Source: Phalacrocorax aristotelis (taxonomy: Eukaryota > Chordata > Aves > Suliformes > Phalacrocoracidae). Taken from it: a DNA stretch of 64,000 nucleotides. Under the pieces are notes generated by a model. It had not been told where the DNA came from, searched no databases, and saw nothing but the letters and a program-made list of their open reading frames with translations. Below are positions 15,140 through 50,330 of this stretch, in pieces. Within the stretch, counting starts at the first letter, position 1; the number at the start of each line of letters is the position of its first letter. The stretch spans positions 310,001-374,000 of the forward strand of contig NW_027441212.1 of the NCBI RefSeq assembly GCF_949628215.1, written 5' to 3'. The translations under genes and the position numbers were made by a program.

Positions 15140-15323
15140 TCCCACAGCAGCCATCGGTGTGGTGTGCCTTGCTCTCGAACTTGGTTTAAACCCAGACTAG
15201 ACCATGACTTATTAGTGAAAGCCTGATTGCTGGTAGTTCGATACTACAATTGTAATGTTAATAGGCAGGGAGAGAAGGATGCGGGAAGCAGGTGTGTGAC
15301 TTCTGTGAACAGCGGCAGCACAG

Positions 15324-15458
15324 GCGTGTGTGACCCTAGGAATCCAGGGCACAGCAAAGCCTTTGCTTCTGATCCAGCCTATTGGTCTCACAGTAGCTTC
15401 CTAAAGGACGAGAACGGCGTGCTCATCTCTGCAGGATCCAGCAGTTCCGTGGTCCAGG
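15324..15458 (+). other. Exon-like segment of unknown gene, left arm copy
   Basis: An open segment between a possible acceptor (GCAGCACAG) and a good donor (GTCCAG|GTAAGC). It encodes DPRNPGHSKAFASDPAYW and then KDENGVLISAGSSSS. The composition is protein-like and the mirror copy at about 49,979-50,113 is also open, but I do not recognise the family. Several differences between the copies change amino acids (for example DPAYW here, DPADW there). Confidence 0.3.
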
Positions 15459-15839
15459 TAAGCCTTGAGTCAAAGAACCAGCTGGAAGCAGCTGTCACTA
15501 ATATGCAGCTGGAGGCCGGTCAGTTCCTTTATCTCCCGTTATTAACATCCATGTCAGCGTAACGCAAAAGACCGGCATTTATCACTTTCCTGGTGTGAAG
15601 CAGTGGCTAGATTTTATCTACGTGTCTTGTCACCCTGGAACTGAGTGTTGCTGTCAAGTGTGCTTGCCAGTCTTGATTGCTAATTTAAACTGCTAGTGAG
15701 GGCTCTCCTGGCAGAGAGCAGTGCTTGTGTGTGCATTTGGTGGCTCGCTTATGAAGAGGAGGCACTTGATGGTTTGTTAGAGAGAGGTCTTTGGTGATCA
15801 TGGTCAGGGAGTGCTGGAGAGCGCCTGGCAAGGTTGTAA

Positions 15840-17035
15840 CGCCACGCTGCCGGCGTACGGTCAGAGGGGCTCAGGGAAGAGCCCATGAGCGACGATCGGG
15901 TATGGTGCGAACAGAGGCTGGGTGCCCGTTGTGCGCCAAGAGCTCTTCAAAGCCCCCCGCACTCGGGAGAACCACAAGCAGTGCCAGGTGGGATTAGCAC
16001 AAAGTGATGCTACATGGAGTAAATGGGTCGCACTGATCACCCAGCGGGCTTGAATAGGAAACCCCAGTGGCCCAGGAGTCTTGGAAGTGACCATGGGCTG
16101 GCCAGAAGGCAAAGACTTTGGAATATCCCCAGAGGAGGGGGTGCCACGTGCTGAAGAGGCCCCACTGTATAACAAACTCTCAGAAGATTAAAAGCAACAC
16201 GCCCTGTTCATTGTAAGCGCCATGTGCTTACAATGGTGGATGCAGCGACCGGCTGGCTGGAAACATATCCCATCCCCCCCGCCCCTGCCCAGACACCATT
16301 CTGGGTCTGGAAAAACAAGTCCTGAGGTGACGTGGCACCCCAGAGAGTGGTCAGACAGCGGACTCATTTCCGAAACAACCTCATAGACACCTGGGCCAAA
16401 GAGCGCGGCACTGAGTGGGTGTATCACACCCCCTGTCACGCACCAGCCTCTGGGAAAATGGAGCGGTACAATGGACTGTTAAAAACTACGCTGAGAGCAA
16501 GGGGGGGTGGGACATTCAGGCCCTGGGGTGCACATTTGGCAAAAGCCACGTGGTTAGTCAACACGAGGGGATCTGCCAGGCGAGCTGGCCCTGCCCAGTC
16601 AGAAATCCTACATGCTGTGGGAGGGGATGGAGTCCCAGTAGCGCACGCAAAAAGTACGCTGGGCAACACAGTCTGGGTCCTCCCTGCCTCAGGCAAAGGC
16701 AAAGCCATTCGTGGGATTGCTTTTGCTCGAGGACCTGGGTGCACTTGGTGGGTGATGCGGGAGGACGGAGAAGTCCGATGTGTGCCTCAAGGGGGTTTGA
16801 TTTTGGGCGAAAACAGGCAATGAACTGAATGGCGCAATGCGAACTGCTATATAATACTGTGTGTCACCTCTGTGTTGTATCCATGATATCAGAGTACGAG
16901 CCTCCCAAGCCATGGACGATAAACTGCGACACAAGCAGAGTGCAGCAGTGACGGAACGGTGCCTGACTCGGCGTGCAGCAGCCCAGGTATGGGACCTGGG
17001 CATGGCGTGAGCGGTGTGGAATAGGGGGAGGCGGC
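15840..17035 (+). pseudogene. pol: Decayed ERVL pol fragment, left arm
   Basis: The frames read RQELFKAPRTRENHKQC, then LYNKLSED followed by a stop (about 16,187), and then integrase sequence such as HFRNNLIDTWAKERGTEWVY, PCHAPASGKMERYNGLLK and RGPGCTWWVMREDGEV. RNase H and the front of integrase are fused by a deletion around 16,190-16,260, and the frame shifts there. This is the 3' end of an avian ERVL (class III) element whose LTR follows directly. Confidence 0.85.
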
Positions 17036-17565
17036 TGTGCTGGTTTTGGCTGAGAAGGGGTTAATTCTCCTCACCGTGGGGGGCGGCTGCCTTTCCGGCT
17101 TCCCGCGCTCTGCCGCGGGGGGGGGGGGGGGGGGCTGGGAGGGGCGGGGCCGCGGTGGGGGCGGCTGACCCCGACTGGCCAGTGGCAGGTTCACTCCATA
17201 CCACGTGACACCACGACCAGGATATTAAGGGGGGTGGGGGTGGGGGGGGCAGTTGCGGCTCGGGAGCGGCGCGGCGGCGGGTCGGCGGTGGGGGAGCGGC
17301 TGCGGCGCGTGGGGTTTGTTCCGGCGGTTCGTTCCCCCTCTCCCGCCCCCCCCCCCCCTTCCCACCCCTTTCCCCCCACCCCGCGGGGCTTTGCGCCTCT
17401 CGTTGTTCTCCTTTCCATTGCATTTCTGTTGTTGTTTCTTTTACTTTCATTTATGAAACTGTTTTTATCCCAACCCACGAGCGTTACCCTTCTGATTCCC
17501 TCCCCCATCTACCGGTGGGGAGGGGGCGAGCGACTGTGTGGGGCTGAGCTGCCGGCCAAACCACA
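17036..17565 (+). repeat. ERVL 3' LTR, left arm
   Basis: It begins TGTGCTGGTTTTGGCTGAG, ends CGGCCAAACCACA, and has the avian ERVL LTR body with G- and C-runs and the 'caacccacgagcgttaccct' stretch. It directly follows the pol fragment. The repeat array starts at its right edge. Confidence 0.85.
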
Positions 17566-20500
17566 GGCCCTAGAAGTGAAGTTTTGGAATTTAATGGGGA
17601 GGCTTTTAGCTTTAAAAGTGGGGTTTGGACCCTGAAAGTGAGGGTTGGGGCCTATAGATGAGGCTTTTAGCCTTATACGAGGGGTTTGGATTCTAAAACG
17701 CACGGTTTTCAAAGAAAAAATGCTGGTTAGTGCATGAAAGGACCGGAGTCGATGCTAAAAGTGAGGGTTTGGGAGCTAAAGAGGAGGCACAGAGCGTTAC
17801 AGGTGGGGTTTGGATGCTGGAAGTGCGGCTTCGGGTGTTAAAACTGAGGCTTTGACTTTTAAAAGAGGAATTTGAACCCTGAAAGTGAGGGTTTGGCTGT
17901 TACAAATGAGGCTTTGAGCGTTAAAAGAGGGGTTTGGACCCTAAAAGTGAGGTTTGCAGTCCTAACTATAAGGCTTTGATGTTAAAAGAGGAGTTTGGGT
18001 GCTTTAAAGTGAGTCTTTGGGACCTGGAAATGAGGCTTTGAGCGTTAAAATAAAGGTTTGGACAACGAAAGGGAGGGTTTGGAATTTTAAAATGAGGGTT
18101 AGTCCATGAAAAGGATGGGTTTGGGACCTCTGAATGAGGCTTTGTGCCTGAAAAGTGGGGTTTGGACGCTTGAAGTGAAGGCTTGGACCTAAAAACGGAG
18201 GCTTTGAGAGTTAAAAGAAGGCTTTGAACCCTGAAAGTGAGGGTTTGGCTGTTAAAAATGAGCCTTTGAGCTTTAAAAGAGGGGTCTGGACAATAAAATG
18301 GAGGCTTTTGAACTTAAAAATGAGGGGTTGTCCCTAAAAAGGAGGGGTTTGGGTCCTAAAAATGAGGGTTTGGGACTGAAAAAATGAGGCTTTGAGTGTT
18401 GAAAGACGGGCTTGGGACATAAAACCCTCACTTCTAGCATCGAATCCTGTCTATTAATGCTCAAGTCATGATTTTTTTCCTTCCAAACGCTACGTTTTAG
18501 AGTCAAAACCCCTTGTTTAAGGCTCAAAGCCTCATTTTTATGTGCCAGACCCTCACATTCAGGTTTCAAACCCCCCCTTTTAACACTCAAAGCCTCATTT
18601 CTAGGTGCCAAAGTTTCACTTTTAGCACCCAAACCTGAGCTCACTTTTAGGAGCCAAGACCTCATTTTTTGTGTCCAAAGCCCTATTTCCACTGGCAAAG
18701 GCTTATGTTTAGATCCCAAACCCTCATGTTCAGGGTCCAAACCCCTCTTTTTATGCTCAAAGCCTCACTTTCAGTGTCTAAACCCGTTTTAAACCTTGCA
18801 GCCTCTGCTTATGGGGTCCCACAGCCTCTGCTTCTGGGGTCCTGCTGCCCCTCATTTTTTGAGTTCCAAACTCCTCTTTTAAGGCTCAAAGCCTCCTCTT
18901 AAGGTCCCAGACCCTCACTCTCAGGGTGCAAACGTGTCATTTTTACTCTCAAAGCCTCTTTTATATCTTGCAAAGCCTCACGTTTAGCTGCCAAACCCGT
19001 CTTTTAAGGCTCAAAGCCTCAGTTTTCTTTTCTAAACTGCCACTTTCAGGGTCCAAACTGCTCTATTAAGCATTAAAACCTCACTTTTAGGTATCAAAAC
19101 CTCATTTGTAATGTCCAAAGCCCTATTTTCTGCAAACCCTCATTTGTAGATCCCAAACCCTCACTTTGAGGGTCGAAACACCTCTTTTAAGGCCCAAAGC
19201 CTTATTTTAGGTCCCAAAGCCTCATTTTTTTTTGTTCCAAACCCGTGTTTTAAGGCTCAAAGCTTCATTTTTAACTCCCAAACCCTCACATTGACGGTCC
19301 AAACCTGTCTTTTGGGTTCAAAGCCTCATTTTTATCACTCGAAGCCTCACTTTCATGGTCCAAACCCCTCTTTTAATGCCCAATGCCTACTTTTAAAGTC
19401 CCAAAGCCTCGCTTGTAGCATCCAAAGCCTCACTTCTAGGTGCCAAAACCTCATTTTTTAGATCCAAAGCTCTATTTTCACCCTCAAAGCCTCATTTTTG
19501 TATCCCAAAGCCTCACTATCACGGTCCAAACCTGTCTTTTGGGTTCAAAGCCTCATTTTTATCACTCGAAGCCTCACTTTCATGGTCCAAACCCCTCTTT
19601 TAATGCCCAATGCCTACTTTTAAAGTCCCAAAGCCTCGCTTGTAGCATCCAAAGCCTCACTTCTAGGTGCCAAAACCTCATTTTTTAGATCCAAAGCTCT
19701 ATTTTCACCCTCAAAGCCTCATTTTTGTATCCCAAAGCCTCACTATCACGGTCCAAACCTGTCTTTTGGGTTCAAAGCCTCATTTTTATCACTCTAAGCC
19801 TCACTTTCATGGTCCAAACCCCTCTTTTAATGCCCAATGCCTACTTTTAAAGTCCCAAAGCCTCGCTTGTAGCATCCAAAGCCTCGCTTCTAGGTGCCAA
19901 AACCTCATTTTTTAGATCCAAAGCTCTATTTTCACCCTCAAACCCTCATTTTTGTATCCCAAAGCCTCACTATCACGGTCCAAACCTGTCTTTTAGGTTC
20001 AAAGCCTCAGTTCTAGGTCCCAAACCCTCACTTCCAGGGTCCAAACCTGTCTTTTAGGTTCAAAGCCTCAGTTTTAGGTCCCAAACCCTCACTTTCAGGG
20101 TCCAAACCTGTCTTTTAAGGCTCAAAGCCTTATTCTAAGTCCCAAACCCTCATTTTTGGTGTTCCAAATCCCTGTTTTAAGTCTAAAAGCCTCCTTTTCA
20201 TATCCCAAACCCTCACTTTCAGGGTCCAAACCCCTCTAGTAAGGAATAAAGCCTCATTTTTAGGTGCCAAACCCTCACTTTTCAGGTCCAAACCTGTCTT
20301 TTTTTAGGGTCCAAACCCTCATTCTTAGGTCCCAAGCCCTCACTTTTAGGGTCCAAACCCCAGTTTTAAAGCTCACAGCCTCATTTTTACCACCCAAAGC
20401 CACACTCCAAGCATCCAAACCCCTCTTTTAACGCTCAGTGCCTCCTTTAAAGGCCCAAAGCCTCACTTGTAGCATCCAAAAGCTCACTTTGAAGTGCCAA

Positions 20501-20985
20501 AACCTCATTTTTACTGTCCAAAGCCCTGTTTTCACCTGCAAAGCCTCAGTTTTAGGTCCCAAAGCCTCACTTGCAGGGTCCAAACCCCTCTTAATACTCA
20601 GTGGCCTCCTTTTTAGGTCCCAAAGCCTCCCATTTAGCATCAAATCTGCTCCATTAATGCTCAAACCGTGCGTTTCAGTCCAAACCCCTTGATTAATCCT
20701 CAAAGTCTCATTTTTAACAGCCAAGAGGGGCCCAAACCCCTTTTTTAATGCTCAGTGCCTCCTTTAAAGCCCCAAGCCCTCACATTTAGGTACTAAAACC
20801 TCATTTTTATTATCCAAGCCTCCTTTTTATATCCCAAACCTTTACTGTTGGCATCGAATGCGGTCTTTTAATGCTCAAACCGTCATTTTCTCTTTCCACA
20901 CTGAGTTTTAGAGCCCAAAGCCATCTTTTAACGCACAAAGCCTCATTTAGTGGTCCCAAACCCTCACTGTTAGGGTCCAAACCTG
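17566..20985. repeat. Tandem-repeat block L1 with internal strand switch
   Basis: An array of diverged ~20-21 bp units of the type GGGTTTGGACCCTAAAAGTGA / GGCTTTGAGCCTTAAAAG, often grouped in ~62 bp trimers. From 17,566 to about 18,420 the T-run strand is +; from about 18,421 to 20,985 the same repeat runs on the minus strand. The alternating T3 and A4-5 clusters spaced by 6-8 GC-rich bases resemble avian CNM/PO41 and W-linked XhoI/EcoRI repeats (from memory). Long frames inside are artefacts of the period. Confidence 0.9.
19298..19978 (-). repeat. 227-bp higher-order unit, three tandem copies (left arm only)
   Basis: The 227-bp block starting GGTCCAAACCTGTCTTTTGG occurs three times nearly unchanged. 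The mirror position in the right arm (about 45,895-46,125) has one copy. This recent local expansion accounts for most of the 479-bp change in arm offset. Confidence 0.88.
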
Positions 20986-22760
20986 ACGTGAGGCTCTTCG
21001 CTCTTGCTGCAAAAGCTATTTCAAATCACAGCTTTGAATAAGAAACACTATACTAGGTTTGTTCCAAGTACATTCATCATCCACTTGTTTCTTTCAATAT
21101 CTGATCATTTCTATTCAAGGCAAGTAAGAACAGGGTCTCTCCCAATGTCAGGCAACACTGGACCTGTCCAGCAAGCGTCAGTCATACTAGAGAGACAGTA
21201 AAAAGCTGAGTATTGTAAAACTCCTGCTTCGGCCCTATTGGTGAGAGAACTTTTGAAGGGAAATATTTCTGACCTTCAAGTCAGTCAAAAGCCAAAGTCA
21301 GTCAGCTATTGCATTTCCTCTGGCTGTGGTTCCACGAATGGATCACACTCAGGTGGAATAAATCTGCTTGAGATGCTTGCAAGCACAAATGCTTACAAAC
21401 CAAATCATTTCTCTTAGTCTGGCACTGCTTAGCTCATGCAAGGACGTAAGTTTACTTGGTTTAGGTGTAAGGACGTCAGCGGCAAGTCCTCTGGAACCGG
21501 GGCTGGAAGTTGTATTTTAGCTTTACGTATCTGGAAATCACAACTCCTCCTCCTTTTTCTTGTTCACTAAGTAGCATCTACGTGAAGGGCATGAACAAAC
21601 ATAGGCGAGTGCACAGAAACGTTCATCGTCCTTTAACTCTGCTGCATTTCCGATTTTTAACATTATTGTATTTGTGTGTATATACCATATATTAAGTTTA
21701 TTGGTTAATTTCATATTTGATAAAAATAGTCCATTTGCTTTCCCCTGCCGTTTAATTTTAATGGTGTTTACTGACTGTGACAGAAATGTGCTTTGTTCAC
21801 TCAACACACTTTCCCCTGTGCTTTAATAGCCTACTTTTTACTAAAGCATATTTTCACATTTTCTTGCCGTGTCAATATTCCAAACATCCATTTTGCACAA
21901 AGTATTTCACCAAGTAATTACGTTTGGCTGCTCCTTGGCTACTGGCTCTAAAAAAAAATTAAATTTTTGAGGTTAATGGGTTTTCTTTATTACAGCTTAA
22001 AATACTTCATTGTCACACTTTACTAAATTGCTAGCCTTCCATGTCTCTGTTGGGGGGAAATACACACACACACCCCCAGCAGTGCGTTGTTGATTGATTT
22101 TTGTTCACATCTGCACAAACACATTTCTTATCTCATGAAGTAGTTCTCTTTATTCCAGAGGACAACGCCCGTGCCGTTATTCCTCAAAAGGAAACAAAAC
22201 CATCTGCTTCTCATAATTTGCACTTGTATTTCCAGATTTCCTGGTTATTTAAAAACCTAAATACTTTGGTATGTGCCACAAGACTTGGATCAACATGCTG
22301 TCTTCAGGTTATGCCATGCACGTGTGGTGAGTCTTTTATACAAGCACCAGATCAAATTCACCCCCTGCTGATCAAGTATTTGACAAAATGTTTTTTTGTC
22401 AGCGATAACGAACAGCTGACCTGATACATCCATCAGTTAACTCACAAAGTGTAAGGTCAGCTCAATAAGCGTGACATTTGGAGCTAGCTTAAAAAGAAGG
22501 CTGGCAGTCACCTAACGGCTCAGAAATCTTTCAATAATTTTATTGACTTGTTCTTTGCCGCTAAATACTGTAGCTTCATTCTGAAAAGCTACTCTCAACG
22601 TTGCCTAAAGGCTGATGCTTTCCTACAGCACTCTCAGGCTAGCTTAACCCCTGAGCTTAAGGAGCAAAGGGACAGGAAACCAAGTCACGCCATCAAGTAT
22701 CGCTAATAGTCATGCTGTAACCAAAGTGATGAACTTAATCAACCAGGGACGTTGTTATAT

Positions 22761-22970
22761 TCTGGGGACATGGAGTGTACGAATCAGCGTATCTGTCGAC
22801 CTGTGTTTTAGTCCCTCGGCAATCATTAATGTGACCGAAACAACAGACAATGTGCTGGTGTCAGAAAATGATGACAAAATGTAGTTTCGTGTAGCGGGCT
22901 GAGAAAACCGGCCAGGACCGCCAAGATAAAGGGCGAAGTAGGTAAGAGGCAATTCCGGCAGGGGGAGATC
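22761..22970 (+). mobile_element. LTR-retrotransposon fragment, left arm
   Basis: From TCTGGGGACATGGAGTGTAC to CAGGGGGAGATC this matches 52,605-52,814, where it leads into a full LTR-like sequence. Here the match stops in the 5' part of that LTR, so this copy is truncated. Confidence 0.6.
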
Positions 22971-24316
22971 TGGACCCGGGAAGATTTAAGGTTGCTGGGA
23001 GGTGTGAAGGTCTGCATGTGGGATCAAGTCAGCTCAGCCCTTTACGGTTTTGAACTGCTTTTCATTTGGAGGAAAACTAAAAGCTTATAACACTGGGAAG
23101 CCCTTTACAGCACGAAATCAAAGGGCTATTGAGACACTCCGGCCTGAAGGACTTCAAGGTTTGCAGCTTTCCCTTGGGCGGGATGTTCTGAGGTTTCCCC
23201 ATTATTAACCTCTGGTGCGGCACACTCCCGTGGGGCTGGGGAGCACAGATCCGATTAAGCGCAGACTTGCTGATGCCACATTGTCACCGTGGTGGCCACC
23301 GTAACAGAGCCCCGGATGTAGTGCTGTGCAGCAGAAGCTACATCCCTGGACTGTGTCTCAGCTGCTTTCTTACTATACAAATATCTGTGTACGTCGAGTA
23401 GTAAAGCCTGCGCAACACAGCTGCATTTCTTTGAGGACTGCTGTGCCATAAGCCACATCTTAGCCCCAAAATTTTCCTTCCCCCTCAAGCTCGGAGCGTG
23501 CACTGCCCTTCATGCAGGGATACTCTCACTGCCAATGTGTTTGTTCTCCTTTTCCCCTTTATAACCGTTCCCTTCCCGGAGCTTTCTATTTCCTGACGCC
23601 CTTAATATCCAGAGCTGTCAGGGATGAAAACCAAAGCCCTGCCGGCAGCTCAGGGAGGGTGAGCGGCTGCCCTTTTCCAAGCAAGCGGCTGAAATACAGC
23701 ACGGTCAGCGGCGCTCTCAGTGTCCAGGCCTGTCACTGTCACGCTCCCACAGCACCTCCACCTGCCCAGACCCTGCCGGGGGCTCAGCCACCGAGAGCAG
23801 CTGTCCTGGGGAGAGACTGGGGGGGCCTCGCAGGCCCTGGGGGTGTTGGCATGGCCCAGGCCCCTCTCTCCCTTCGTCCCCTCTCCAAAGCCCTGCCTGG
23901 GAGGGAGGCTGCTCATCTCTCTCGGGAAGTGCAACCTGTTGATAGTCTTAAAAGAGGTTAAATGCAGCCTCTGTGGGGTCTGGTACCCCCATGCAGCCCC
24001 CTCAGGGCAGCCTCACAGAACTTGCTTCCTCAGCAGGCACAAAGCGATACCTGAATCAATACTGAGCTGCAGCAAAGTGATGAAGCAGGAAAAAATTCCG
24101 TGCAAGTTTTCATACTCTGGGCAAGTTTGATGCGAGATGTGGTCACGCGAGGCTCTCAATAGGATCAGGTTAGGAGCGCACAATAAATACCGCCAGCTGT
24201 CCCCTGCAGCACTGGGGCTTGTTAGCTGACTTGTGAGCCAGGCTGAGCGTTGCAGTAAGGAGCCGTTCCTCCGGCCCCAGGGACCGTTACGCGCTCACCT
24301 GAGGCTGAAGTGAAGC

Positions 24317-24384
24317 ATGGGTTCAGAGCTCAGTGTCAGCGTGCCTGGGCAGAAGCCCAAGCTGCCACCCCTTTGCATCCAAGG
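24317..24384 (+). CDS. Candidate short first coding exon (MGSELSVSVPGQ), unknown
   Basis: ATG GGT begins a 22-23 codon frame that ends at a strong donor (CCAAGG|GGTAAGTG). A TATA-like AATAAATA lies about 135 bp upstream. The N-terminal Met-Gly could be a myristoylation site. The frame is unchanged in the mirror copy at about 41,534-41,601. No family was recognised, and it may be chance. Confidence 0.2.
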
Positions 24385-25469
24385 GGTAAGTGCCATCAGT
24401 GGGTGCAGACGCTGGGGTGCATTTCCCACAGCTCATGGCACTCTCTGTTTATACCAGCACGGTGCATTAGAATGGCTAAGCCGCGCTTTATTAGCTCGCC
24501 AGCCCAAAGGGCTGTGATTCAGGCCGATAGTGGTGTTGCTCAGCTGGTTGCGAGCTGGTTACAGCACAGCCTCACCCTGTGGGGTCTGTTTCCCAGCAAA
24601 CAGCGGGAACAGATGAGGAACAGAGGGCTCTGCAAGGGGCGAGTTGTTCGATCTGAAGTGAAACACGAAGGCACGAGCGAGCTGGAGCGACGCACTGAGT
24701 CCCTCCTGCAAGAGCTGAGTACGGGGAGGTGCTGGCGGAGGGGAGATAATTTGGCAGCCTGGAGAGCAAAGCAGGCACTTGGAGGAAGCGGAGAGAGAAA
24801 GAAACAAGAACGACTGGCAAGAGCCTGTGGAGGGTGTGAGAAGCAAAGATTTAAAATCAGACCTTGAAATAATGCTGACTCAGCACAGCTGCTGCACGCT
24901 ATTGCTAATGGTGAAAAGCCTCAGGGATTTTTAGAAGCAAAACCAACAAGCAAACCAACAGAAAACCAGCTGGGTGATTTTTTCCCCCTCAGCTCGGTTA
25001 CTTTTCCCCAGCCCTGGCCACTCTGCAAGGCGATGCTCGTCACCCATATCAGGGTGCAGGATTGGGCCCAGGGCAGGGCTTTTGCAGGCAGCACATTTCT
25101 TGTTCCCAGTAACACAGTCGCTGGGCATTGATCAACAACTGGGGCAGTTGCCCAGAATTACCATTCTTGCTCTCTCCCCAGTTCCCTTCACTTTTGCTCT
25201 TCCTTTTTCTTTCTTTCTCTGTCTGACTCCCTGCCTGTATTTTCTAACTCCTCCCTGTCTGTCCTACAGCCTGATGCTATGTTTTCCTTTCCCTACACCT
25301 CTCTCCCGCTCCCTGGCCTTCTCCTTCCTCTGTCGCCGTGTCCTGGCCACATGGTTCCCCTCTGTGCTGCCGCCTGTCCCCTCTCTCCCGCCTGTGTCCC
25401 CCGCTCGGCTGGCCCTGCTGCTCTCGGGGCCTCCGTCCTGCTCCCCGGCCCCTTCTGCTCCTCCTGCAT

Positions 25470-27935
25470 GAACCCTGAAACTCACGGTTTGGGACCTAAA
25501 AAGGAGGCAATGAGTGTTAAAATAGGGGTTTGGACGCTGAAAGTGAGTCGTTGGGTGTTACAAATGAGGATTTGGCTGTTAAACAAGGGCTTTGGTTCCT
25601 AGAAGTGAGGGTTTGGCTGTTAAAAATGAGGCTTTGAGCCTTAATAAAGGGGTTTGGACCCTGGAAGGGAGGGTTTGGGACCTAAAAATGATGCTTTGAG
25701 CCTTAAACAACGGATTTAGACCCTAAACGTGAGGCTTTGTGACATACAAATGAGGCTTTGACAGTAAAAAAGACAGGTTTGGACCCTGACAGTGAGGGTT
25801 TGGGAGCTCTAAATGCGGCCTTGAGCCTTAAAAGTGGGGTTTGGACCTTGAGAGTGAAGGTTTGGAACATAAAACTGAGGCTTTGAGAGTTAAAAGAGGG
25901 ATTTGAACCCTGAAAGTGAGGATTTGGGTGTTAAGAAGGAGGCTTTGAGCCTTAAAACAGGGGTTTGGACTCTGAAACTCACGGTTTGGAATGAAAATAT
26001 GACTGTTTGAGCATTAGAAGACCAGATTCGATGCTAGAAGTGAGGGTTTGGGACCTAAAAATGAGGGTTTGTCCCTTAAAAGTAGGGGTTTGGACCCTAA
26101 AACTGAAGATTTGGAATGAAAAACTGAGGCTTTTAGCCTTAAAAGAGGGGTTTGGACCCTGAAAGTGAGGGTCTGGGACCAAAAGATGAGACTTTTAGCC
26201 TTAAACGAGGGGTTTGGAGTCTAAAACGTGAGGCTTTGGAAAGAAAAACTGATGGTTTGAGCATAAAAGGACTGGGGCCGCTGCTAAAAGTGAGGATTTG
26301 GGACCTAAAGAGGAGGCACTGAGCGTTAAAAGAGGGGTTTGGACATTGGAAGTGTGGCTTTGGGTGTTAAAAATGAGGCTTTGAGTGTTAAAAGGGGGCT
26401 TTGGACCCTAAAAGTGAGGTTTGCGGTCCTAACTATAGGGCTTGAGGTTGAAATAGGGGTCTGGACAATAAAAGGGAGGCTTTGGAACTTAAAAATGAGG
26501 GTTTGTCCCTAAAAAGGAGGGGTTTGGATCCTAAAAGTGAGGGTTTGGGATCCAAATTAATGCTTTGAGCCCTAAAGGATGGTTTTAGACCCTAAACGTG
26601 AGGCTTTTCAAAATATAAATGAGGCTTTGACATTAAAAAAGACAGGTCTGGACCCTAACAGTGAGGGTTTGGGACATCTAAATGAGGCTTTGAGAGTTAA
26701 AAGAGGGGTTTGGACCCTGAAAGTGAGGGTTTGGCACCTGAAAATGAGGCTTTATTCCTTATTAGAGGGGTTTGGACCCTGAAAGTGAGGGTTTGGGATA
26801 TAAAAAGGAGGCTTTTGCCCTTAAAACAGGGATTAGGAAAACAGAAAAATGAGGGTTTTGGACTTGAAAGAGGGGTTTGGACCCTGAAAGTGAGGGTTTG
26901 GGACCTAAAACTGAGGCTTTGAACCTAAAAAAATGGAATGAAAAAAATGACGGTTTGAGCATTAATAGGCTGGATTCAATGCTAAAAGGGAGGGTTTTAT
27001 GTCCCAAGCCCGTCTTTCAACACTCAAAGCCTCATTTTTTAGTCCCAAACCCTCACTTTCACGGTCCAAACCCCTCCTTTTTAGGGACAAACCCTCATTT
27101 TTAACAGCCAAAGCCTGACTTTTATTGTCCAAACCCATCTTTTAACGCTCAAACCCTTATAGTTAGGACCGCAAACCTCACTTTTAGGGTCCAAACCCCT
27201 CCTTTTTTAGGGACAAACCCTCATTTTTAGGTCCCAAAGAATCACTTTAAAGCACCCAAAACCTCACTTTTAACATCACAGCCTTAATAGGTAGGACAGT
27301 AAACCTCACTTTTAGGGTCCAAATCCCCGTTTTAAAAATCAAAGCCTCATTTTTAACAGCCAAAACCTCACTTTCAGGGTCCTAACCCCTCTTTCAACGC
27401 TCGGTGCCTCATTTAGATGTCCCAAACCCTCACTGTTAGGGTCCAGACCTGTCTATTTTTACTGTCAAAGACTCATTTATTTGTTGCAAAGCCTCACGCT
27501 GAGGATCTAAATCCATCCTTTAGGGCTCAAGGCATTGTATTTAGGTCCCCAACCCTCCCTTTTGGTCTCCAAACTTGCCTTTTCTAGTGTCAAAGCCTCA
27601 TTTTTAGGTCCCAAACCCTCACTTTCAGGGTCCAAACCCCTATACTAACCTCTCAAAGCCTCAGTTTTAAGTTCCAAACCTTTAATTTCAGGGCCCAAAC
27701 CCCACTTTTAAGGCACAAAGCCTCATTTAGAGGTCCCAAACCCTCACTTTGAGGCTCCAAACCTATCTTTTCTGTGCAAAGCCTTATTTTTATATCCCAA
27801 GCCTTCACTTTTAGGGTCCAAATTCCTCCTTTTTAGGGACAAACCCTCATTTTTTCACCTCCAAAGCCTCTCTTTTATTGTCCAAACCCAGCTTTTAACA
27901 GTCAAAGCGTTATAGTTAAGACGGCAAACCTCACG
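25470..27935. repeat. Tandem-repeat block L2 with internal strand switch
   Basis: Same repeat family as L1, but the block is inverted with respect to it: + orientation to about 27,000, then minus to 27,935. The switch core (GGGTTTTATGTCCCAAGCCC) is the exact reverse complement of the L1 switch. It lacks about 580 bp present in the matching right block R1. It ends abruptly at the truncated ERVL. Confidence 0.9.
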
Positions 27936-31765: not shown

Positions 31766-31766
31766 A

Positions 31767-34888: not shown

Positions 34889-34890
34889 GT

Positions 34891-35366: not shown

Positions 35367-35372
35367 CCTCAG
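35367..35372 (+). other. Target-site duplication CCTCAG (right)
   Basis: Second copy of the 6-bp duplication flanking the ERVK-type provirus. Confidence 0.95.
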
Positions 35373-40100: not shown

Positions 40101-40447
40101 GCATTTAGAGCTCCCAAACCCTCACTGTCAGGGTCCAAACCTGTCTTTTTTACTGTCAAAGCCTCATTTGTATGTCACAAAGCCTCACGTTTAGGGTCTA
40201 AATCCATCGTTTAAGGCTCAAAGCATCATTTTTAGGTCCCAAACCCTCCCTTTCAGGGTCCAAACCCCTTTATTAAGGCTCAAAGACTCATTTTTAACAG
40301 CCAAACCCTCACTTCTAGGAACCAAAGCCCTTGTTTAACAGCCAAATCCTCATTTGTAACACCCAACGACTCACTTTCAGCGTCCAAACCCCTATTTTAA
40401 CACTCATTGCCTCCTTTTTAGGTCCCAAACCGTGAGTTTCAGGGTTC
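37124..40447. repeat. Tandem-repeat block R1 with internal strand switch
   Basis: Same ~20-21 bp family, + orientation to about 38,341, then minus to 40,447. It mirrors L2 but holds about 580 bp more in 38,760-39,735. Its first ~280 bp (37,124-37,401) have no partner in the left arm, as if the left partner was lost when the ERVL was truncated. Confidence 0.9.
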
Positions 40448-43400
40448 ACGCAGGAGGAGCAGAAGGGGCCGGGGAGCAGGACGGAGGCCCCGAGAGCAGC
40501 AGGGCCAGCCGAGCGGGGGATACAGGCGGGAGAGAGGGGACAGGCTGCAGCACAGAGGGGAACCAGGTGGCCAGGACACGGCGACAGAGGAAGGAGAAGG
40601 CCAGGGAGCGGGAGAGAGGTGTAGGGAAAGGAAAACACAGCATCAGGCTGTAGGACAGACAGGGAGGAGTTAGAAAATACAGGCAGGGAGTCAGACAGAG
40701 AAAGAAAGAAAAAGGAAGAGCAAAAGTGAAGGGAACTGGGGAGAGAGCAAGAATGGTAATTCTGGGCAACTGCCCCAGTTGTTGATCAATGCCCAGCGAC
40801 TGCGTTACTGGGAACAAGAAATGTGCTGCCTGCAAAAGCCCTGCCCTGGGCCCAATCCTGCACCCTGATATGGGTGACGAGCATCGCCTTGCAGAGTGGC
40901 CAGGGCTGGGGAAAAGTAACCGAGCTGAGGGGGAAAAAAATCACCCAGCTGGTTTTTTGTTGGTTTGCTTGTTGGTTTTGCTTCTAAAAATCCCTGAGGC
41001 TTTTCACCATTAGCAATAGCGTGCAGCAGCTGTGCTGAGTCAGCATTATTTCAAGGTCTGATTTTAAATCTTTGCTTCTCACACCCTCCACAGGCTCTTG
41101 CCAGTCGTTCTTGTTTCTTTCTCTCTCCGCTTCCTCCAAGTGCCTGCTTTGCTCTCCAGGCTGCCAAATTATCTCCCCTCCGCCAGCACCTCCCCGTACT
41201 CAGCTCTTGCAGGAGGGACTCAGTGCATCGCTCCAGCTCGCTCGTGCCTTCGTGTTTCACTTCAGATCGAACAACTCGCCCCTTGCAGAGCCCTCTGTTC
41301 CTCATCTGTTCCCGCTGTTTGCTGGGAAACAGACCCCACAGGGTGAGGCTGTGCTGTAACCAGCTCGCAACCAGCTGAGCAACACCACTATCGGCCTGAA
41401 TCACAGCCCTTTGGGCTGGCGAGCTAATAAAGCGCGGCTTAGCCATTCTAATGCACCGTGCTGGTATAAACAGAGAGTGCCATGAGCTGTGGGAAATGCA
41501 CCCCAGCGTCTGCACCCACTGATGGCACTTACCCCTTGGATGCAAAGGGGTGGCAGCTTGGGCTTCTGCCCAGGCACGCTGACACTGAGCTCTGAACCCA
41601 TGCTTCACTTCAGCCTCAGGTGAGCGCGTAACGGTCCCTGGGGCCGGAGGAACGGCTCCTTACTGCAACGCTCAGCCTGGCTCACAAGTCAGCTAACAAG
41701 CCCCAGTGCTGCAGGGGACAGCTGGCGGTATTTATTGTGCGCTCCTAACCTGATCCTATTGAGAGCCTCGCGTGACCACATCTCGCATCAAACTTGCCCA
41801 GAGTATGAAAACTTGCACGGAATTTTTTCCTGCTTCATCACTTTGCTGCAGCTCAGTATTGATTCAGGTATCGCTTTGTGCCTGCTGAGGAAGCAAGTTC
41901 TGTGAAGCTGCCCTGAGGGGGCTGCATGAGGGTACCAGACCCCACAGAGGCTGCATTTAACCTCTTTTAAGACTATCAACAGGTTGCACTTCCCAAGAGA
42001 GATGAGCAGCCTCCCTCCCAGGCAGGGCTTTGGAGAGGGGACGAAGGGAGAGAGGGGCCTGGGCCATGCCAACACCCCCAGGGCCTGCGAGGCCCCCCCA
42101 GTCTCTCCCCAGGACAGCTGCTCTCGGTGGCTGAGCCCCCGGCGGGGTCTGGGCAGGTGGAGGTGCTGTGGGAGCGTGACAGTGACAGGCCTGGACACTG
42201 AGAGCGCCGCTGACCGTGCTGTATTTCAGCCGCTTGCTTGGAAAAGGGCAGCCGCTCACCCTCCCTGAGCTGCCGGCAGGGCTTTGGTTTTCATCCCTGA
42301 CAGCTCTGGATATTAAGGGCATCAGCAAATAGAAAGCTCCGGGAAGGGAACAGTTATAAAGGGGAAAAGGAGAACAAACACATTGGCAGTGAGAGTATCC
42401 CTGCATGAAGGGCAGTGCAAGCTCCGAGCTTGAGGGGGAAGGAAAACTTTGGGGCTAAGATGTGGCTTATGGCACAGCAGTCCTCAAAGAAATGCAGCTG
42501 TGTTGCGCAGGCTTTACTACTCGACGTACACAGATATTTGTATAGTAAGAAAGCAGCTGAGACACAGTCCAGGGATGTAGCTTCTGCTGCACAGCACTAC
42601 ATCCGGGGCTCTCTTACGGTGGCCACCGCGGTGACAACGTGGCATCAGCAAGTCTGCGCTTAATCGGATCTGTGCTCCCCAGCCCCACGGGAGTGTGCCG
42701 CACCAGAGGTTAATAATGGGGAAACCTCAAAACCTCCCGCCCAAGGGAAAGCTGCAAACCTTGAAGTCCTTCAGGCAGGAGTGTCTCAATAGCCCTTTGA
42801 TTTCCTGCTGTAAAGGGCTTCCCAGTGTTATAAGCTTTTAGTTTTCCTCCAAATGAAAAGCAGTTCAAAACCGTAAAGGGCTGAGCTGACTTGATCCCAC
42901 ATGCAGACCTTCACACCTCCCAGCAACCTTAAAACTCCCCGGGTCCAGATCTCCCCCTGCCGGAATTACCTCTTACCTACTTGGCCCTTTATCTTGGCGG
43001 TCCTGGCCGGTTTTCTCAGCCCGCTACACGAAACTACATTTTGTCATCCTTTTCTGACAGCAGCACGTTGTCTGTTGTTTCGGTCACATTAATGATTGCC
43101 AAGGGACTAAAACACAGGTCGACAGATACGCTGATTCGTACACTCCATGTCCCCAAAATATAACAACATCCCTGGTTGATTAAGTTCATCACTTTGGTTA
43201 CAGCATGACTATTAGCGATACTTGATGGCGTGACTTGGTTTCCTGTCCCTTTGCTCCTTAAGCTCAGGGGTTAAGCTAGCCTGAGAGTGCTGTAGGAAAG
43301 CATCAGCCTTTAGGCAACGTTGAGAGTAGCTTTTCAGAATGAAGCTACAGTATTTAGCGGCAAAGAACAAGTCAATAAAATTATTGAAAGATTTCTGAGC

Positions 43401-44931
43401 CCTTAGGTGACTGCCAGCCTTCTTTTTAAGCTAGCTCCAAATGTCACGCTTATTGAGCTGACCTTACACTTTGTGAGTTAACTGATGGATGTATCAGGTC
43501 AGCTGTTCGTTATCGCTAACGAAAAAACATTTTGTCAAATACTTGATCAGCAGGGGGTGAATTTGATCTGGTGCTTGTATAAAAGACTCACCGCACGTGC
43601 ATGGCATAACCTGAAGACAGCATGTTGATCCAAGTCTTGTGGCACATACCAAAGTATTTAGGTTTTTAAATAATCAGGAAATCTGGAAATACAAGTGCAA
43701 ATTATGAGAAGCAGATGGTTTTGTTTCCTTTTGAGGAATAATAGCACGGGCGTTGTCCTCTGGAATAAAGAGAACTACTTCACGGGATAAGAAATGTGTT
43801 TGTGCAGATGTGAACAAAAATCAATCAACAACCCACTGCTGGGGGTGTGTGTGTATTTCCCCCCAACAGAGACATGGAAGGCTAGCAATTTAGTACAGTG
43901 TGACAATGAAGTATTTTAAGCTGTAATAAAGAAAACCCATTAACCTCAAAAATTTAATTTTTTTTTAGAGCCAGTAGCCAAGGAGCAGCCAAACGTAATT
44001 ACTTGGTGAAATACTTTGTGCAAAATGGATGTTTGGAATATTGACACGGCAAGAAAATGTGAAAATATGCTTTAGTAAAAAGTAGGATATTAAAGCACAG
44101 GGGAAAGGGTGTTGAGTGAACAAAGTACATTGCTGTCACAGTCAGTGAACACCATTAAAATTAAATGGCAGGGGAAAGCAAATGGACTATTTTTATCAAA
44201 TATGAAATTAACCAATAAACTTAATATATGGTATATACACACAAATACAATAATGTTAAAAATCGGAAATGCAGCAGAGTTAAAGGACGGTGAACGTTTC
44301 TGTGCACTCGCCTACGTTTGTTCATGCCCTTCACGTAGATGCTACTTAGCGAACAAGAAAAAGGAGGAGGAGTTGTGATTTCCAGATACGTAAAGCTAAA
44401 ATACAACTTCCAGCCCCGGTTCCAGAGGACTTGCCGCTGACGTCCTTACACCTAAACCAAGTAAACTTACGTCCTTGCATGAGCTAAGCAGTGCCAGACT
44501 AAGAGAAATGATTTGGTTTGTAAGCATTTGTGCTTGCAAGCATCTCAAGCAGATTTATTCCACCTGAGTGTGATCCGTTCGTGGAACCACAGCCAGAGGA
44601 AATGCAATAGCTGACTGACTTTGGCTTTTGACTGACTTGAAGGTCAGAAATATTTCCCTTCAAAAGTTCTCTCACCAATAGGGCCGAAGCAGGAGTTTTA
44701 CAATACTCAGCTTTTTACTGTCTCTCTAGTATGACTGACGCTTGCTGGACAGGTCCAGTGTTGCCTGACATTGGGAGAGACCCTGTTCTTACTTGCCTTG
44801 AATAGAAATGATCAGATATTGAAAGAAACAAGTGGATGATGAATGTACTTGGAACAAACCTAGTATAGTGTTTCTTATTCAAAGCTGTGATTTGAAATAG
44901 CTTTTGCAGCAAGAGCGAAGAGCCTCACGTC
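40448..44931. other. Non-repetitive core of right arm
   Basis: Mirror of 20,986-25,469. The candidate exon (MGSELSVSVPGQ) reads on the minus strand near 41,601-41,534 with no change. The ERV/LTR fragment is mirrored at about 42,948-43,157. No protein family was recognised. Confidence 0.6.
42948..43157 (-). mobile_element. LTR-retrotransposon fragment, right arm
   Basis: Mirror of 22,761-22,970 with several substitutions (for example a changed stretch near the CATTTTGTCATCC box). The fragment predates the palindrome. Confidence 0.55.
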
Positions 44932-47876
44932 AGGTTTGGACCCTAACAGTGAGGGTTTGGGACCACTAAATGAGGCTTTGTGCGTTAAAAGATGGCTTTG
45001 GGCTCTAAAACTCAGTGTGGAAAGAGAAAATGACGGTTTGAGCATTAGAAGACCTCATTCGATGCCAACAGTAAAGGTTTGGGATATAAAAAGGAGGCTT
45101 GGATAATAAAAATGAGGTTTTAGTACCTAAATGTGAGGGCTTGGGGCTTTAAAGGAGGCACTGAGCATTAAAAAAGGGGTTTGGGCCCCTCTTGGCTGTT
45201 AAAAATGAGACTTTGAGGATTAATCAAGGGGTTTGGACTGAAACGCACGGTTTGAGCATTAATAGAGCAGATTTGATGCTAAATGGGAGGCTTTGGGACC
45301 TAAAAAGGAGGCCACTGAGTATTAAGAGGGGTTTGGACCCTGCAAGTGAGGCTTTGGGACCTAAAACTGAGGCTTTGCAGGTGAAAACAGGGCTTTGGAC
45401 AGTAAAAATGAGGTTTTGGCACTTCAAAGTGAGCTTTTGGATGCTACAAGTGAGGCTTTGGGCCTTTAAAGGAGGCACTGAGCGTTAAAAGAGGGGTTTG
45501 GATGCTTGGAGTGTGGCTTTGGGTGGTAAAAATGAGGCTGTGAGCTTTAAAACTGGGGTTTGGACCCTAAAAGTGAGGGCTTGGGACCTAAGAATGAGGG
45601 TTTGACCCTGAAAAGTGAGGGTTTGGCACCTAAAAATGAGGCTTTATTCCTTACTAGAGGGGTTTGGACCCTGAAAGTGAGGGTTTGGGATATGAAAAGG
45701 AGACTTTTAGACTTAAAACAGGGATTTGGAACACCAAAAATGAGGGTTTGGGACTTAAAATAAGGCTTCGAGCCTTAAAAGACAGGTTTGGACCCTGAAA
45801 GTGAGGGTTTAGGACCTAAAACTGAGGCTTTGAACCTAAAAGACAGGTTTGGACCCTGAAAGTGAGGGTTTGGGACCTAAAAGACAGGTTTGGACCGTGA
45901 TAGTGAGGCTTTGGGATACAAAAATGAGGCTTTGAGGGTGAAAATAGAGCTTTGGATCTAAAAAATGAGGTTTTGGCACCTAGAAGTGAGGCTTTGGATG
46001 CTACAAGTGAGGCTTTGGGACTTTAAAAGTAGGCATTGGGCATTAAAAGAGGGATTTGGACCATGAAAGTGAGGCTTCGAGTGACAAAAATGAGGCTTTG
46101 AACCCAAAAGACAGGTTTGGACCGTCAATGTGAGGGTTTGGGAGTTAAAAATGAAGCTTTGAGCCTTAAAACACGGGTTTGGAACAAAAAAAAATGAGCC
46201 TTTGGGACCTAAAATAAGGCTTTGGGCCTTAAAACAGGTGTTTCGATCCTGAAAGTGAGGGTTTGGGATCTACAAATGAGGGTTTGCAGTTGAAAATAGG
46301 GCTTTGGACATTACAAATGAGGTTTTGATACCTAAAAGTGAGGTTTTAATGCTTAATAGAGCAGTTTGGACCCTGAAAGTGGCGGTTTAGAAAAGAAAAC
46401 TGAGGCTTTGAGCCTTAAAAGACGGGTTTGGCAGCTAAACGTGAGGCTTTGCAAGATATAAAAGAGGCTTTGAGAGTAAAAATGACATGTTTGCACCCTG
46501 AGAGTGAGGGTCTGGGACCTTAAGAGGAGGCTTTGAGCCTTAAAAGAGGAGTTTGGAACTCAAAAAATGAGGGGCGGCAGGACCCCAGAAGCAGAGGCTG
46601 TGGGACCCCATAAGCAGAGGCTGCAAGGTTTAAAACGGGTTTAGACACTGAAAGTGAGGCTTTGGGTGGTAAAAATGAGGCTTTGAGCATAAAAAGAGGG
46701 GTTTGGACCCTGAACATGAGGGTTTGGGATCTAAACATGAGGCTTTGCCAGTGGAAATAGGGCTTTGGACACAAAAAATGAGGTCTTGGCTCCTAAAAGT
46801 GAGCTCAGGTTTGGGTGCTAAAAGTGAAACTTTGGCACCTAGAAATGAGGCTTTGAGTGTTAAAAGGGGGGTTTGAAACCTGAATGTGAGGGTCTGGCAC
46901 ATAAAAATGAGGCTTTGAGCCTTAAACAAGGGGGTTTGACTCTAAAACGTAGCGTTTGGAAGGAAAAAAATCATGATTTGAGCATTAATAGACAGGATTC
47001 GATGCTAGAAGTGAGGGTTTTATGTCCCAAGCCCGTCTTTCAACACTCAAAGCCTCATTTTTTCAGTCCCAAACCCTCTCTTTTAGGACCCAAACCCCTC
47101 CTTTTTAGGGACAACCCCTCATTTTTAAGTTCAAAAGCCTCCATTTTATTGTCCAGACCCCTCTTTTAAAGCTCAAAGGCTCATTTTTAACAGCCAAACC
47201 CTCACTTTCAGGGTTCAAAGCCTTCTTTTAACTCTCAAAGCCTCAGTTTTTAGGTCCAAACCTTCACTTCACGTGTCCAAACCCCACTTTTCAGGCACAA
47301 AGCCTCATTCAGAGGTCCCAAACCCATCCTTTTCATGGACTAACCCTCATTTTAAAATTCCAAACCCTCCCTTTCGTTGTCCAAACCTTTATTTTAACGC
47401 TCAAAGCCTCATTTCCAGGTCCCAAAGACTCACTTTAAAGCACCCAAACTCCTCTTTTAACATCAAAGCCTTATAGTTAGGACTGCAAACCTCACTTTTA
47501 GGGTCCAAACCCCTCTTTTAACGCTCAAAGCCTCATTTGTAACAGCCAAACCCTCCCTTTCAGGGTTCAAATTCCTCTTTTAAAAGTCAAAGCCTCAGTT
47601 TTAACACCCGAAGCCACACTTCCAGCATCCAAACCCCACCTGTAACGCTCAGTGCCTCCTCTTTAGCTCCCAAACCCTCACTTTTAGCATCGACTCCGGT
47701 CCTTTCATGCTCTAACCAGCATTTTTTCTTTGAAAACCGTGCCTTTTAGAATCCAAACCCCTCGTATAAGGCTAAAAGCCTCATCTATAGGCCCCAACCC
47801 TCACTTTCAGGGTCCAAACCCCACTTTTAAAGCTAAAAGCCTCCGCGTTAAATTCCAAAACTTCACTTCTAGGGCC
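44932..47876. repeat. Tandem-repeat block R2 with internal strand switch
   Basis: + orientation to about 47,021, then minus to 47,876. It mirrors L1 but has a single 227-bp unit where L1 has three. Confidence 0.9.
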
Positions 47877-48401
47877 TGTGGTGGTTTGCCCGGCAGCTCA
47901 GCCCCACACAGTCGCTCGCCCCCGCCCCACCGGTAGATGGGGGAGGGAATCAGAAGGGTAACGCTCGTGGGTTGGGATAAAAACAGTTTCATAAATGAAA
48001 TTAAAAGAAACAACAACAGAAATGCAATGGAAAGGAGAACAACGAGAGGCGCAAAGCCCCGCGGGGTGGGGGGAAAGGGGTGGGAAGGGGGGGGGGGGCG
48101 GGAGAGGGGGAACGAACCGCCGGAACAAACCCCACGCGCCGCAGCCGCTCCCCCACCGCCGACCCGCCGCCGCGCCGCTCCCGAGCCGCAACTGCCCCCC
48201 CCACCCCCCTTAATATCCTGGTCGTGGTGTCACGTGGTATGGAGTGAACCTGCCACTGGCCAGTCGGGGTCAGCCGCCCCCACCGCGGCCCCGCCCCTCC
48301 CAGCCCCCCACCCCCCCCCCGCGGCAGAGCGCGGGAAGCCGGAAAGGCAGCCGCCCCCCACGGTGAGGAGAATTAACCCCTTCTCAGCCAAAACCAGCAC
48401 A
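47877..48401 (-). repeat. ERVL 3' LTR, right arm
   Basis: Mirror of 17,036-17,565. At its inner end it reads CCTGTGGTGGTTTGCCCGG, a small difference from the left copy. Confidence 0.85.
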
Positions 48402-49597
48402 GCCGCCTCCCCCTATTCCACACCGCTCACGCCATGCCCAGGTCCCATACCTGGGCTGCTGCACGCCGAGTCAGGCATCGTTCCGTCGCTGCTGCACTCT
48501 GCTTGTGTCGCAGTTTATCGTCCATGGCTTGGGAGGCTCGTACTCTGATATCATGGATGCAACACAGAGGTGACACACAGTATTATATAGCAGTTCGCAT
48601 TGCGCCATTCAGTTCATTGACTGTTTTCGCCCAAAATCAAACCCCCTTGAGGCACACATCGGACTTCTCCGTCCTCCCGCATCACCCACCAAGTGCACCC
48701 AGGTCCTCGAGCAAAAGCAATCCCACGAATGGCTTTGCCTTTGCCTGAGGCAGGGAGGACCCAGACTGTGTTGCCCAGCGTACTTTTTGCGTGCGCTACT
48801 GGGACTCCATCCCCTCCCACAGCATGTAGGATTTCTGACTGGGCAGGGCCAGCTCGCCTGGCAGATCCCCTCCTGTTGACTAACCACGTGGCTTTTGCCA
48901 AATGTGCATCCCAGGGCTTGAATGTCCCACCCCCCCTTGCTCTCAGCATAGTTTTTAACAGTCCATTGTACCGCTCCATTTTCCCAGAGGCTGGTGCGTG
49001 ACAGGGGGTGTGATACACCCACTCAGTGCCGCGCTCTTTGGCCCAGGTGTCTATGAGGTTGTTTCGGAAATGAGTCCGTTGTCTGACCACTCTCTGGGGT
49101 GCCACGTCACCTCAGGACTTGTTTTTCCAGACCCAGAATGGTGTCTGGGCAGGGGCGGGGGGGATGGGATATGTTTCCAGCCAGCCGGTCGCTGCATCCA
49201 CCATTGTAAGCACATGGCGCTTACAATGAACAGGGCGTGTTGCTTTTCATCTTCTGAGAGTTTGTTATACAGTGGGGCCTCTTCAGCACGTGGCACCCCC
49301 TCCTCTGGGGATATTCCAAAGTCTTTGCCTTCTGGCCAGCCCATGGTCACTTCCAAGACTCCTGGGCCGCTGGGGTTCCCTACTCGAGCCCGCTGGGTGA
49401 TCAGTGCGACCCATTTACTCCATGTAGCATCACTTTGTGCTAATCCCACCTGGCACTGCTTGTGGTTCTCCCGAGTGCGGGGGGCTTTGAAGAGCTCTTG
49501 GCGCACAACGGGCACCCAGCCTCTGTTCGCACCATACCCGATCGTCGCTCATGGGCTCTTCCCTGAGCCCCTCTGACCGTACGCCAGCAGCGTGGCG
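48402..49597 (-). pseudogene. pol: Decayed ERVL pol fragment, right arm
   Basis: Mirror of the left-arm copy, with the same RNase H/integrase deletion. Two stops present on the left (after LITQRA and after KLSED) are open here, giving a 154-codon frame at 49,051-49,515. The left stops are therefore later mutations. Confidence 0.85.
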
Positions 49598-49978
49598 TTA
49601 TAACCTTGCCAGGCGCTCTCCAGCACTCCCTGACCATGATCACCAGAGACCTCTCTCTAACAAACCATCAAGTGCCTCCTCTTCATAAGCGAGCCACCAA
49701 ATGCACACACAAGCACTGCTCTCTGCCAGGAGAGCCCTCACTAGCAGTTTAAATTAGCAATCAAGACTGGCAAGCACACTTGACAGCAACACTCAGTTCC
49801 AGGATGACAAGACACGTAGATAAAATCTAGCCACTGCTTCACACCAGGAAAGTGATAAATGCCGGTCTTTTGCATTACGCTGACATGGATGTTAATAACG
49901 GGAGATAAAGGAACTGACCGGCCTCCAGCTGCGTATTAGTGACAGCTGCTTCCAGCTGGTTCTTTGACTCAAGGCTTA

Positions 49979-50113
49979 CCTGGACCATGGAACTGCTGGA
50001 TCCTGCAGAGATGAGCACGCCGTTCTCGTCCTTTCGGAAGCTCCTCTGAGACCAATCGGCTGGATCAGAAGCAAAGGCTTTCCTGTGCCCTGGATTCCTA
50101 GGGTCTCACACGC
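49979..50113 (-). other. Exon-like segment of unknown gene, right arm copy
   Basis: Mirror of 15,324-15,458, with the same donor (CAG|GTAAGC on the minus strand). It reads DPADWSQRSFRKDENGVL. The minus frame is open. I do not recognise the family. Confidence 0.3.
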
Positions 50114-50330
50114 CTGTGCTGCCGCTGTTCACAGAAGTCACACACCTGCTTCCCGCATCCTTCTCTCCCTGCCTATTAACATTACAATTGCAGCGTCAAA
50201 CTACCAGCAATCAGGCTTTCACTAATAACTCATGGTTTCGTCTGGGTTTAAACCAAGTTCAACAGCAAGGCACAGCTTCATCTCCTAAGCACACCACAGA
50301 AGATGCTGAGGTGGGAAGGCTTGTAGATGT

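Follow-up and report, generated by a model that had tools for sequence, protein, structure and literature searches.

Going by its title, a study by Davis et al. 2010 reportedly deals with an avian palindrome, on the W chromosome of New World sparrows. Palindrome P6 of the human Y chromosome is built around a spacer. Its inverted arms are large, and arms of human Y palindromes are more than 99.9% identical, with gene conversion between them (PMC3723533). For the duck W chromosome, 38 palindromes of 15.2-345.5 kb made of repeats have been described, which were assigned to the W by male/female read depth and contain no robustly expressed genes (PMC7787181). The chicken W carries the abundant satellite sate-21, whose 21-bp unit contains tracts of T and of A and which forms higher-order repeats that have diverged, and a HINT1W amplicon in which an amplified gene is tied to tandem repeats (PMC9974502). 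Here we describe a palindrome in 64,000 nucleotides of DNA from the shag Phalacrocorax aristotelis (assembly GCF_949628215.1, contig NW_027441212.1, positions 310,001 to 374,000; this whole stretch is the window, in whose positions all coordinates are given), which lies between two copies of a gene resembling that for the nucleoporin ELYS (AHCTF1).

The shag palindrome resembles those of the duck W in being long and made of nested repeats, and no gene product of the palindrome itself is apparent to us; unlike them, which were assigned to the W by male/female depth, it lies between ELYS-like gene copies (PMC7787181). Like P6 it has large inverted arms around a spacer, although at 98.8% identity these are less alike than the arms of human Y palindromes (PMC3723533). 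With the chicken W it shares a 21-bp satellite unit bearing A and T tracts, higher-order repeats that have diverged, and the association of an amplified gene with tandem repeats; however, the satellite unit (tandem repeats finder (TRF) consensus such as TTTTAGGTCCCAAACCCTCAC) differs from the chicken TTTTCN5GAAAAN6, the gene is ELYS-like and not HINT1W, and the arrangement here is palindromic (PMC9974502). We consider it likely that the palindrome occupies the intergenic stretch between truncated ELYS-like genes amplified in tandem, and that it formed as an inverted duplication.

Geometry of the palindrome

Comparison of the window with its own reverse complement, which the initial annotation had proposed as a dot-plot and which was carried out by BLASTN, recovered the inverted arms as matches of 39182-46803 to 26735-19080 (95.6% over 7,689 columns with gaps), of 45559-50274 to 19859-15163 (95.8%) and of 37404-39872 to 27934-25486 (84.1%), the last of which spans a 580-bp length difference out of register. 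In a global MAFFT alignment kept in register, the left arm (15163-27934, plus orientation, 12,772 bp) and the right arm (37404-50274, minus orientation, 12,871 bp) differed at 150 of 12,263 aligned sites, an identity of 98.78%. The inverted match scored 12,251 bits in the real window, as against 36.2 bits or less for the best match in five first-order Markov shuffles. The annotated palindrome with arms of more than 12 kb was thus borne out, while its ends, first placed at 15140 and 50330, were trimmed to 15163 and 50274; the spacer, given as 9.5 kb, measures 9,469 bp (27935-37403).

Thirteen gap runs separate the arms, of 474, 580, 21 and 23 bp together with nine of 1-6 bp. All four of at least 20 bp fall in satellite, the 474 and 580 bp within arrays of a 21/62-bp repeat, and the 474-bp excess of the left arm is roughly the length of two 227-bp higher-order units. 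Mirror sums per 250-bp bin ran at 65437-65445, at 65419-65422 past the 21-bp gap, at 65880-65893 past the 474-bp excess of the left array (from 19540), at 65916-65918 past the 23-bp gap and at 65337 past the 580-bp excess at about 38.61-39.19 kb in the right array. The earlier statement that these sums change only at two length differences therefore holds for the two large ones, with two smaller shifts to be added.

Flanking ELYS-like genes

Exons of ELYS type lie on the plus strand in both flanks, so that the palindrome takes up the interval between two ELYS-like genes in head-to-tail order. The upstream copy (1797-14121) extends from residue 373 to the C-terminus in 17 exons and ends in TGA at 14119-14121. 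For a spliced alignment in which only GT-AG introns were accepted, 687 residues of the shag ELYS-like protein P0087 were submitted; 664 of 677 aligned codons were identical, and neither a stop nor a frameshift interrupted them. A 5-nt exon placed by the aligner at 6467-6471 is probably an artefact, because an exon at 6718-6833 keeps the frame open; leaving the small exon out while retaining 6738-6833 gave 21 stops. Joined with 6718-6833, the 17 exons are open to a single terminal stop and, over 692 columns, match P0087 at 97.1% identity. The downstream copy (58977-63533) comprises exons 1-3, residues 1-193, and runs past the window; its frame is open, and in the spliced alignment 185 of 192 codons agree with P0087. 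Inside the window the two copies overlap in no exon. A GC-rich minisatellite of 17/34 bp was observed at 53474-53659, upstream of the second copy.

Domain searches agreed on the identity of the gene. Pfam ELYS-bb was found in the open reading frame (ORF) 1995-2333 of the left flank and at 60311-60439 in the right flank, and a short exon at 12380-12547, flagged by a codon-usage scan, matched ELYS in Protein Data Bank (PDB) structures of the nuclear pore (E 7e-14). Pieces of the ELYS beta-propeller are present in the window, and the cormorant models P0089 and P0092 contain both the propeller and the ELYS helical domain. The ELYS-like frame stops at residue 1059 of P0087, canonical shag ELYS has 2,280 residues, and no match below E 0.3 to canonical residues beyond 1069 (shag P0122) was found in the window. 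The long C-terminal region of ELYS is chromatin-binding. Judged by sequence, the flanking genes are a truncated paralogue of ELYS/AHCTF1.

The distance from one gene start to the next is at least 61.7 kb, made up of 57.2 kb from residue 373 to the following start, 4.6 kb for residues 1-193 and a part not seen, a minimum which assumes one gene structure for both copies. A search with the propeller piece returned 142 proteins, and among the 120 listed the nearest by identity were ten cormorant 'ELYS-like' clusters, at 94-97%; in a further listing of 120 out of 195 proteins, at least 18 clusters were cormorant ELYS-like. At least 14 of these, from P. carbo (56 member sequences), are each given with a contig of 5,560,761 bp, which by this equality of size would be one and the same contig; the member counts may repeat sources or isoforms. 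The initial annotation had placed the large-arm palindrome in an ampliconic setting, and the gene copies on both flanks support this. Palindromic spacers of this kind may recur throughout such an array.

Contents of the arms

Of the left arm, satellite accounts for about 46%, a non-satellite core for about 35% and kinesin- and ERVL-like relics for about 19%. Arms made largely of tandem repeat and not of intact genes had been annotated; they are indeed rich in satellite, at somewhat under half of the left arm, and no intact gene was found inside them. From its outer edge inwards, the left arm has the kinesin-like relic, a degraded integrase piece with a long terminal repeat (LTR) at 16215-17567 (plus strand; inverted copy 47878-49222), satellite array 1 (17568-20985), the 4.48-kb core (20986-25465) and satellite array 2 (25466-27934). 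The integrase piece, which together with the relic in the spacer we take to be ERVL-like, is 85-86% identical to spacer copies at 28580-29160 and 36580-37119; its ORF 16326-16820 had no Pfam match. In the right arm, the copy of array 2 (37404-40445) carries the 580-bp excess and that of array 1 (44933-47876) lacks the 474 bp.

Arrays were delimited by TRF, an orientation map and the phasing of A and T tracts. The base unit is 21 bp, often arranged as 62-bp trimers, and array 1 contains the 227-bp higher-order unit at 19194-20056. Gaps between A and T tracts peaked at 6-7 bp in four of four left-arm array segments, and AA/TT autocorrelation in the arrays rose at 10, 21 and 62 bp, a phasing near 10.5 bp; neither signal was seen in the core or the flanks. 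The satellite switches strand at four places, near 18.45, 26.96, 38.37 and 46.98 kb, of which the switch in array 1 lies near 18.42-18.47 kb and its inverted copy in array 2 near 26.96-27.0 kb. The junction carries a 14-mer, GACATAAAACCCTC, of which the window holds exactly four copies, two on the plus strand (18416 and 38334) and two on the minus strand (26990 and 47013). Mirror copies of the junction are 98.4% (J1/J4) and 97.5% (J2/J3) identical, and the approximately 300 bp next to the junctions are 82-84% identical between non-mirror copies, as compared with about 70-76% for most other pairs of array segments. One junction, common to all four flips, has thus been copied four times and the core is flanked by an older inverted pair, which we read as an inner, older palindrome.

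Pfam was run on 37 frames of the window in sets of 10, 10, 10 and 7. Six of ten frames in the first set matched, all to retroviral families, and none of ten in the second; at E up to 10, the third set gave two ELYS matches, two below threshold and six without any, and the fourth no credible match among seven. In the selected frames of the core that were searched there was no coding match and no recognisable gene, and the only gene remains found inside the arms were a kinesin-like exon and the retroviral relics. An Rfam search of the window returned no matches. A 217-bp interspersed repeat (88%) is shared by the core (22754-22970) and the right flank (52599-52814).

The relic of a kinesin-3-like motor exon lies at 15257-15523 on the plus strand, with a copy in the right arm at 49980-50180 on the minus strand that was found by tblastn and has a confirmed in-frame stop. 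By phmmer its best PDB match was the KIF1A motor (E 0.0065), with 12 kinesin-3 sequences below 0.01; no Pfam match was obtained at E up to 10. The same segment forms the C-terminus of four of the 18 listed cormorant ELYS-like clusters (P0088, P0089, P0090 and P0092), and the last 42 residues of shag P0092 are 100% identical to left-arm positions 15434-15559 and 95% identical to the right arm. Of 202 retrieved proteins compared, seven had matches within the palindrome (E up to 1e-4), every one of them at 15257-15559 or the mirror position; four were cormorant models, one came from a stork and two from fish. In the stork protein (P0098) ELYS is followed by a segment like the relic and then by a Pfam kinesin match, an order suggesting that the left arm likely keeps the ancestral arrangement, with the right arm as its inverted copy. 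Those ELYS-like models of shag and great cormorant in public databases that end in arm-like sequence may be mis-annotated or may reflect a real fusion with the kinesin relic.

Spacer and provirus

The spacer opens with ERVL-like RNase H and integrase, is interrupted by a provirus and continues with two LTRs, followed by satellite from about 37124. The provirus (29162-35366, minus strand) is young and of ERVK/alpharetrovirus-like type, and sits within the ERVL-like integrase. Its LTRs (29162-29600 and 34891-35366) show three mismatches over 439 aligned sites, the main difference between them being a single unit of a 38-bp repeat, and its target duplication is 6 bp (CCTCAG). Separate open frames carry the Pfam domains Gag_p24, RVT_1, rve, TLV_coat and Avian_gp85, and among 82 matches listed its gag was closest to that of a bird, Cuculus canorus, at 59%. 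The primer binding site beside the LTR (34871-34890) is presumably of the lysine tRNA type; with an Env of the avian gp85 family this amounts to a mixed retroviral make-up. Of 1,114 aligned sites, 126 set both arms apart from the spacer ERVL copy and 9 distinguish the arms from each other; the arms hence diverged, or were homogenised, much later than their split from that copy.

Formation of the palindrome

The inner arm homology ends in satellite on both sides. On the route that we favour, the satellite would already have carried the inversion junction, in both orientations around the core, before the outer arms arose. A break within inverted satellite, repaired by fold-back or by inverted exchange, may then have produced the outer arms, and the provirus would have inserted in the older ERVL copy of the spacer. 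The main effect of the palindrome may be to promote rearrangement, and with it changes of copy number in a methylated repeat array. Methylation of the arms is suggested by their differences, as mismatches fell at 61 of 641 CpG-context sites (9.5%) and at 89 of 11,622 others (0.77%); such an excess fits heterochromatin on any chromosome.

Several points weigh against an intergenic spacer formed by inverted duplication within an ELYS-like amplicon. The window contains one gene-palindrome-gene interval only, and a diagnostic scar of the formation route is not readable. The copies of the junction within an arm are 74.5% identical over about 630 sites, which is not above the array background, and the kinesin match is weak on sequence alone. 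In the propeller-piece search the first match by E-value, among those listed, was a razorbill ELYS-like protein at 65%. Alignment to P. carbo P0085 reveals one stop and one additional codon in the upstream copy, at 2827-2872, a segment that is intron under the P0087 alignment.

Alternative explanations

An assembly artefact, from a fold-back read or mis-joined repeats, is very improbable. Tandem arrays rich in satellite and endogenous retroviruses (ERVs) are where assemblers fail, and the contigs given for cormorant ELYS-like proteins are short (0.365 to 5.56 Mb among the matches listed). However, fold-back reads yield near-identical arms with little spacer, whereas the arms here are separated by 150 substitutions and 13 gap runs, around a 9.5-kb spacer holding a provirus with a target duplication of its own; the shag assembly, if it is the one used here, was built from 42-fold HiFi reads at QV 61.7 (PMC12605584). 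A less easily dismissed possibility, which we nevertheless doubt, is an old palindrome kept alike by gene conversion between the arms, on whatever chromosome. Arm mismatches were overdispersed (variance/mean 2.17 in 250-bp bins, reached by none of 2000 random placements), the longest identical run of 679 bp was reached in 64 of 2000, and the 126 shared and 9 mutual differences from the ERVL comparison would also be expected under homogenisation. However, with CpG-context sites removed the clustering became marginal (equalled in 81 of 2000 placements with 250-bp bins and in 144 of 2000 with 500-bp bins), and is thus mostly a CpG effect; polarised changes showed no clear bias (four AT-to-GC and two GC-to-AT), and a single recent duplication accounts for the same data.

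The initial annotation took the palindrome as typical of an ampliconic sex-chromosome region, which for this bird would mean a W-chromosome palindrome homogenised by intrachromosomal gene conversion. We regard this as unlikely, although much of the make-up invites it: the phased 21-bp satellite with higher-order units resembles sate-21 of the chicken W (PMC9974502), ERV insertions are present, and the duck W offers the repeat-made palindromes cited above (PMC7787181). The GC content of the window, 47.9%, is near the 47.5% of the shag W and far from the 41.0% of chromosome 3, but chromosomes 13, 16, 17, 19 and 27 also have 47.0-48.0% (PMC12605584). A distant shag relative (43%) of the provirus gag lies on a contig of 31,346,572 bp, the size of the W (31.35 Mb; PMC12605584). 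In contrast, the three shag ELYS-like clusters listed are on contigs of 1.466 and 0.365 Mb and not on that W (PMC12605584), canonical shag ELYS is on a contig the size of chromosome 3, and ELYS-like proteins of a gull are on a contig of 132 Mb. Gannet ELYS-like proteins exist and may derive from one published gannet genome, which is that of a male bird (PMC13419459). The satellite sequence is also unlike those of the chicken W: in the window the motif TTTTCN5GAAAA was not enriched (seven matches at up to one mismatch, 6.3 expected), and the chicken XhoI W-repeat primers had no match at up to three mismatches. No W gametolog was seen, HINT1 being the only one sought by name; a protein query for this multicopy gene of the chicken W gave two chance matches (E 3.1 and 9.3). 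A galliform W was also considered and is rejected, as the ELYS exons point to cormorants. Palindromes of such make-up are easily taken as a sex-chromosome signature, an inference that would fail should the present one be autosomal.

Evolution of the ELYS-like genes

A tree of 24 chosen proteins united all eight ELYS-like proteins of suliforms in a single clade (100/100), next to canonical ELYS of gannet and shag (98/94) and with these inside a suliform group (100/98). The stem of the cormorant ELYS-like proteins measured 0.27 changes per site, versus 0.036 on the canonical shag branch. A quicker tree of 50 proteins again joined cormorant and gannet ELYS-like proteins (99); its placement of these with the ELYS-like proteins of hoazin and penguin, and not with suliform ELYS, had weak support (54). 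The ELYS-like proteins of gulls, penguins, gannet and passerines are also shortened, to about 1,000-1,300 residues, often with several member sequences. In contrast to those of cormorants, however, the gull proteins joined curlew ELYS in the 24-protein tree (100/99), so the gull duplication is independent. A Larus michahellis ELYS-like cluster comprises 63 member sequences, on the 132-Mb contig, and a gannet cluster 27. Amplification of ELYS may thus recur in seabirds; a literature search on ELYS/AHCTF1, limited in coverage, showed no report of such amplification among the papers listed.

With the palindrome read as the spacer between ELYS-like genes, what could be called a heterochromatic palindrome is recast as part of an apparent large coding gene array. 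The part of ELYS retained in the truncated proteins binds the Y complex of the nuclear pore. One speculation, which we hold to be improbable as a whole, is that truncated ELYS genes of cormorants number in the tens within a megabase-sized array, with satellite/retrovirus palindromes between them, that suliforms and gulls amplified the gene independently with accelerated protein change, and that the products could work in the germ line as decoys whose effect depends on dose, the array possibly being the outcome of genetic conflict through drive or suppression. If this were true, a truncated ELYS would serve as decoy by keeping the Y-complex-binding part without the chromatin-binding tail. The separate and rapidly evolving amplification, in several lineages of seabirds, of a shortened factor of nuclear-pore assembly is a testable case of amplicon evolution, possibly one driven by conflict.

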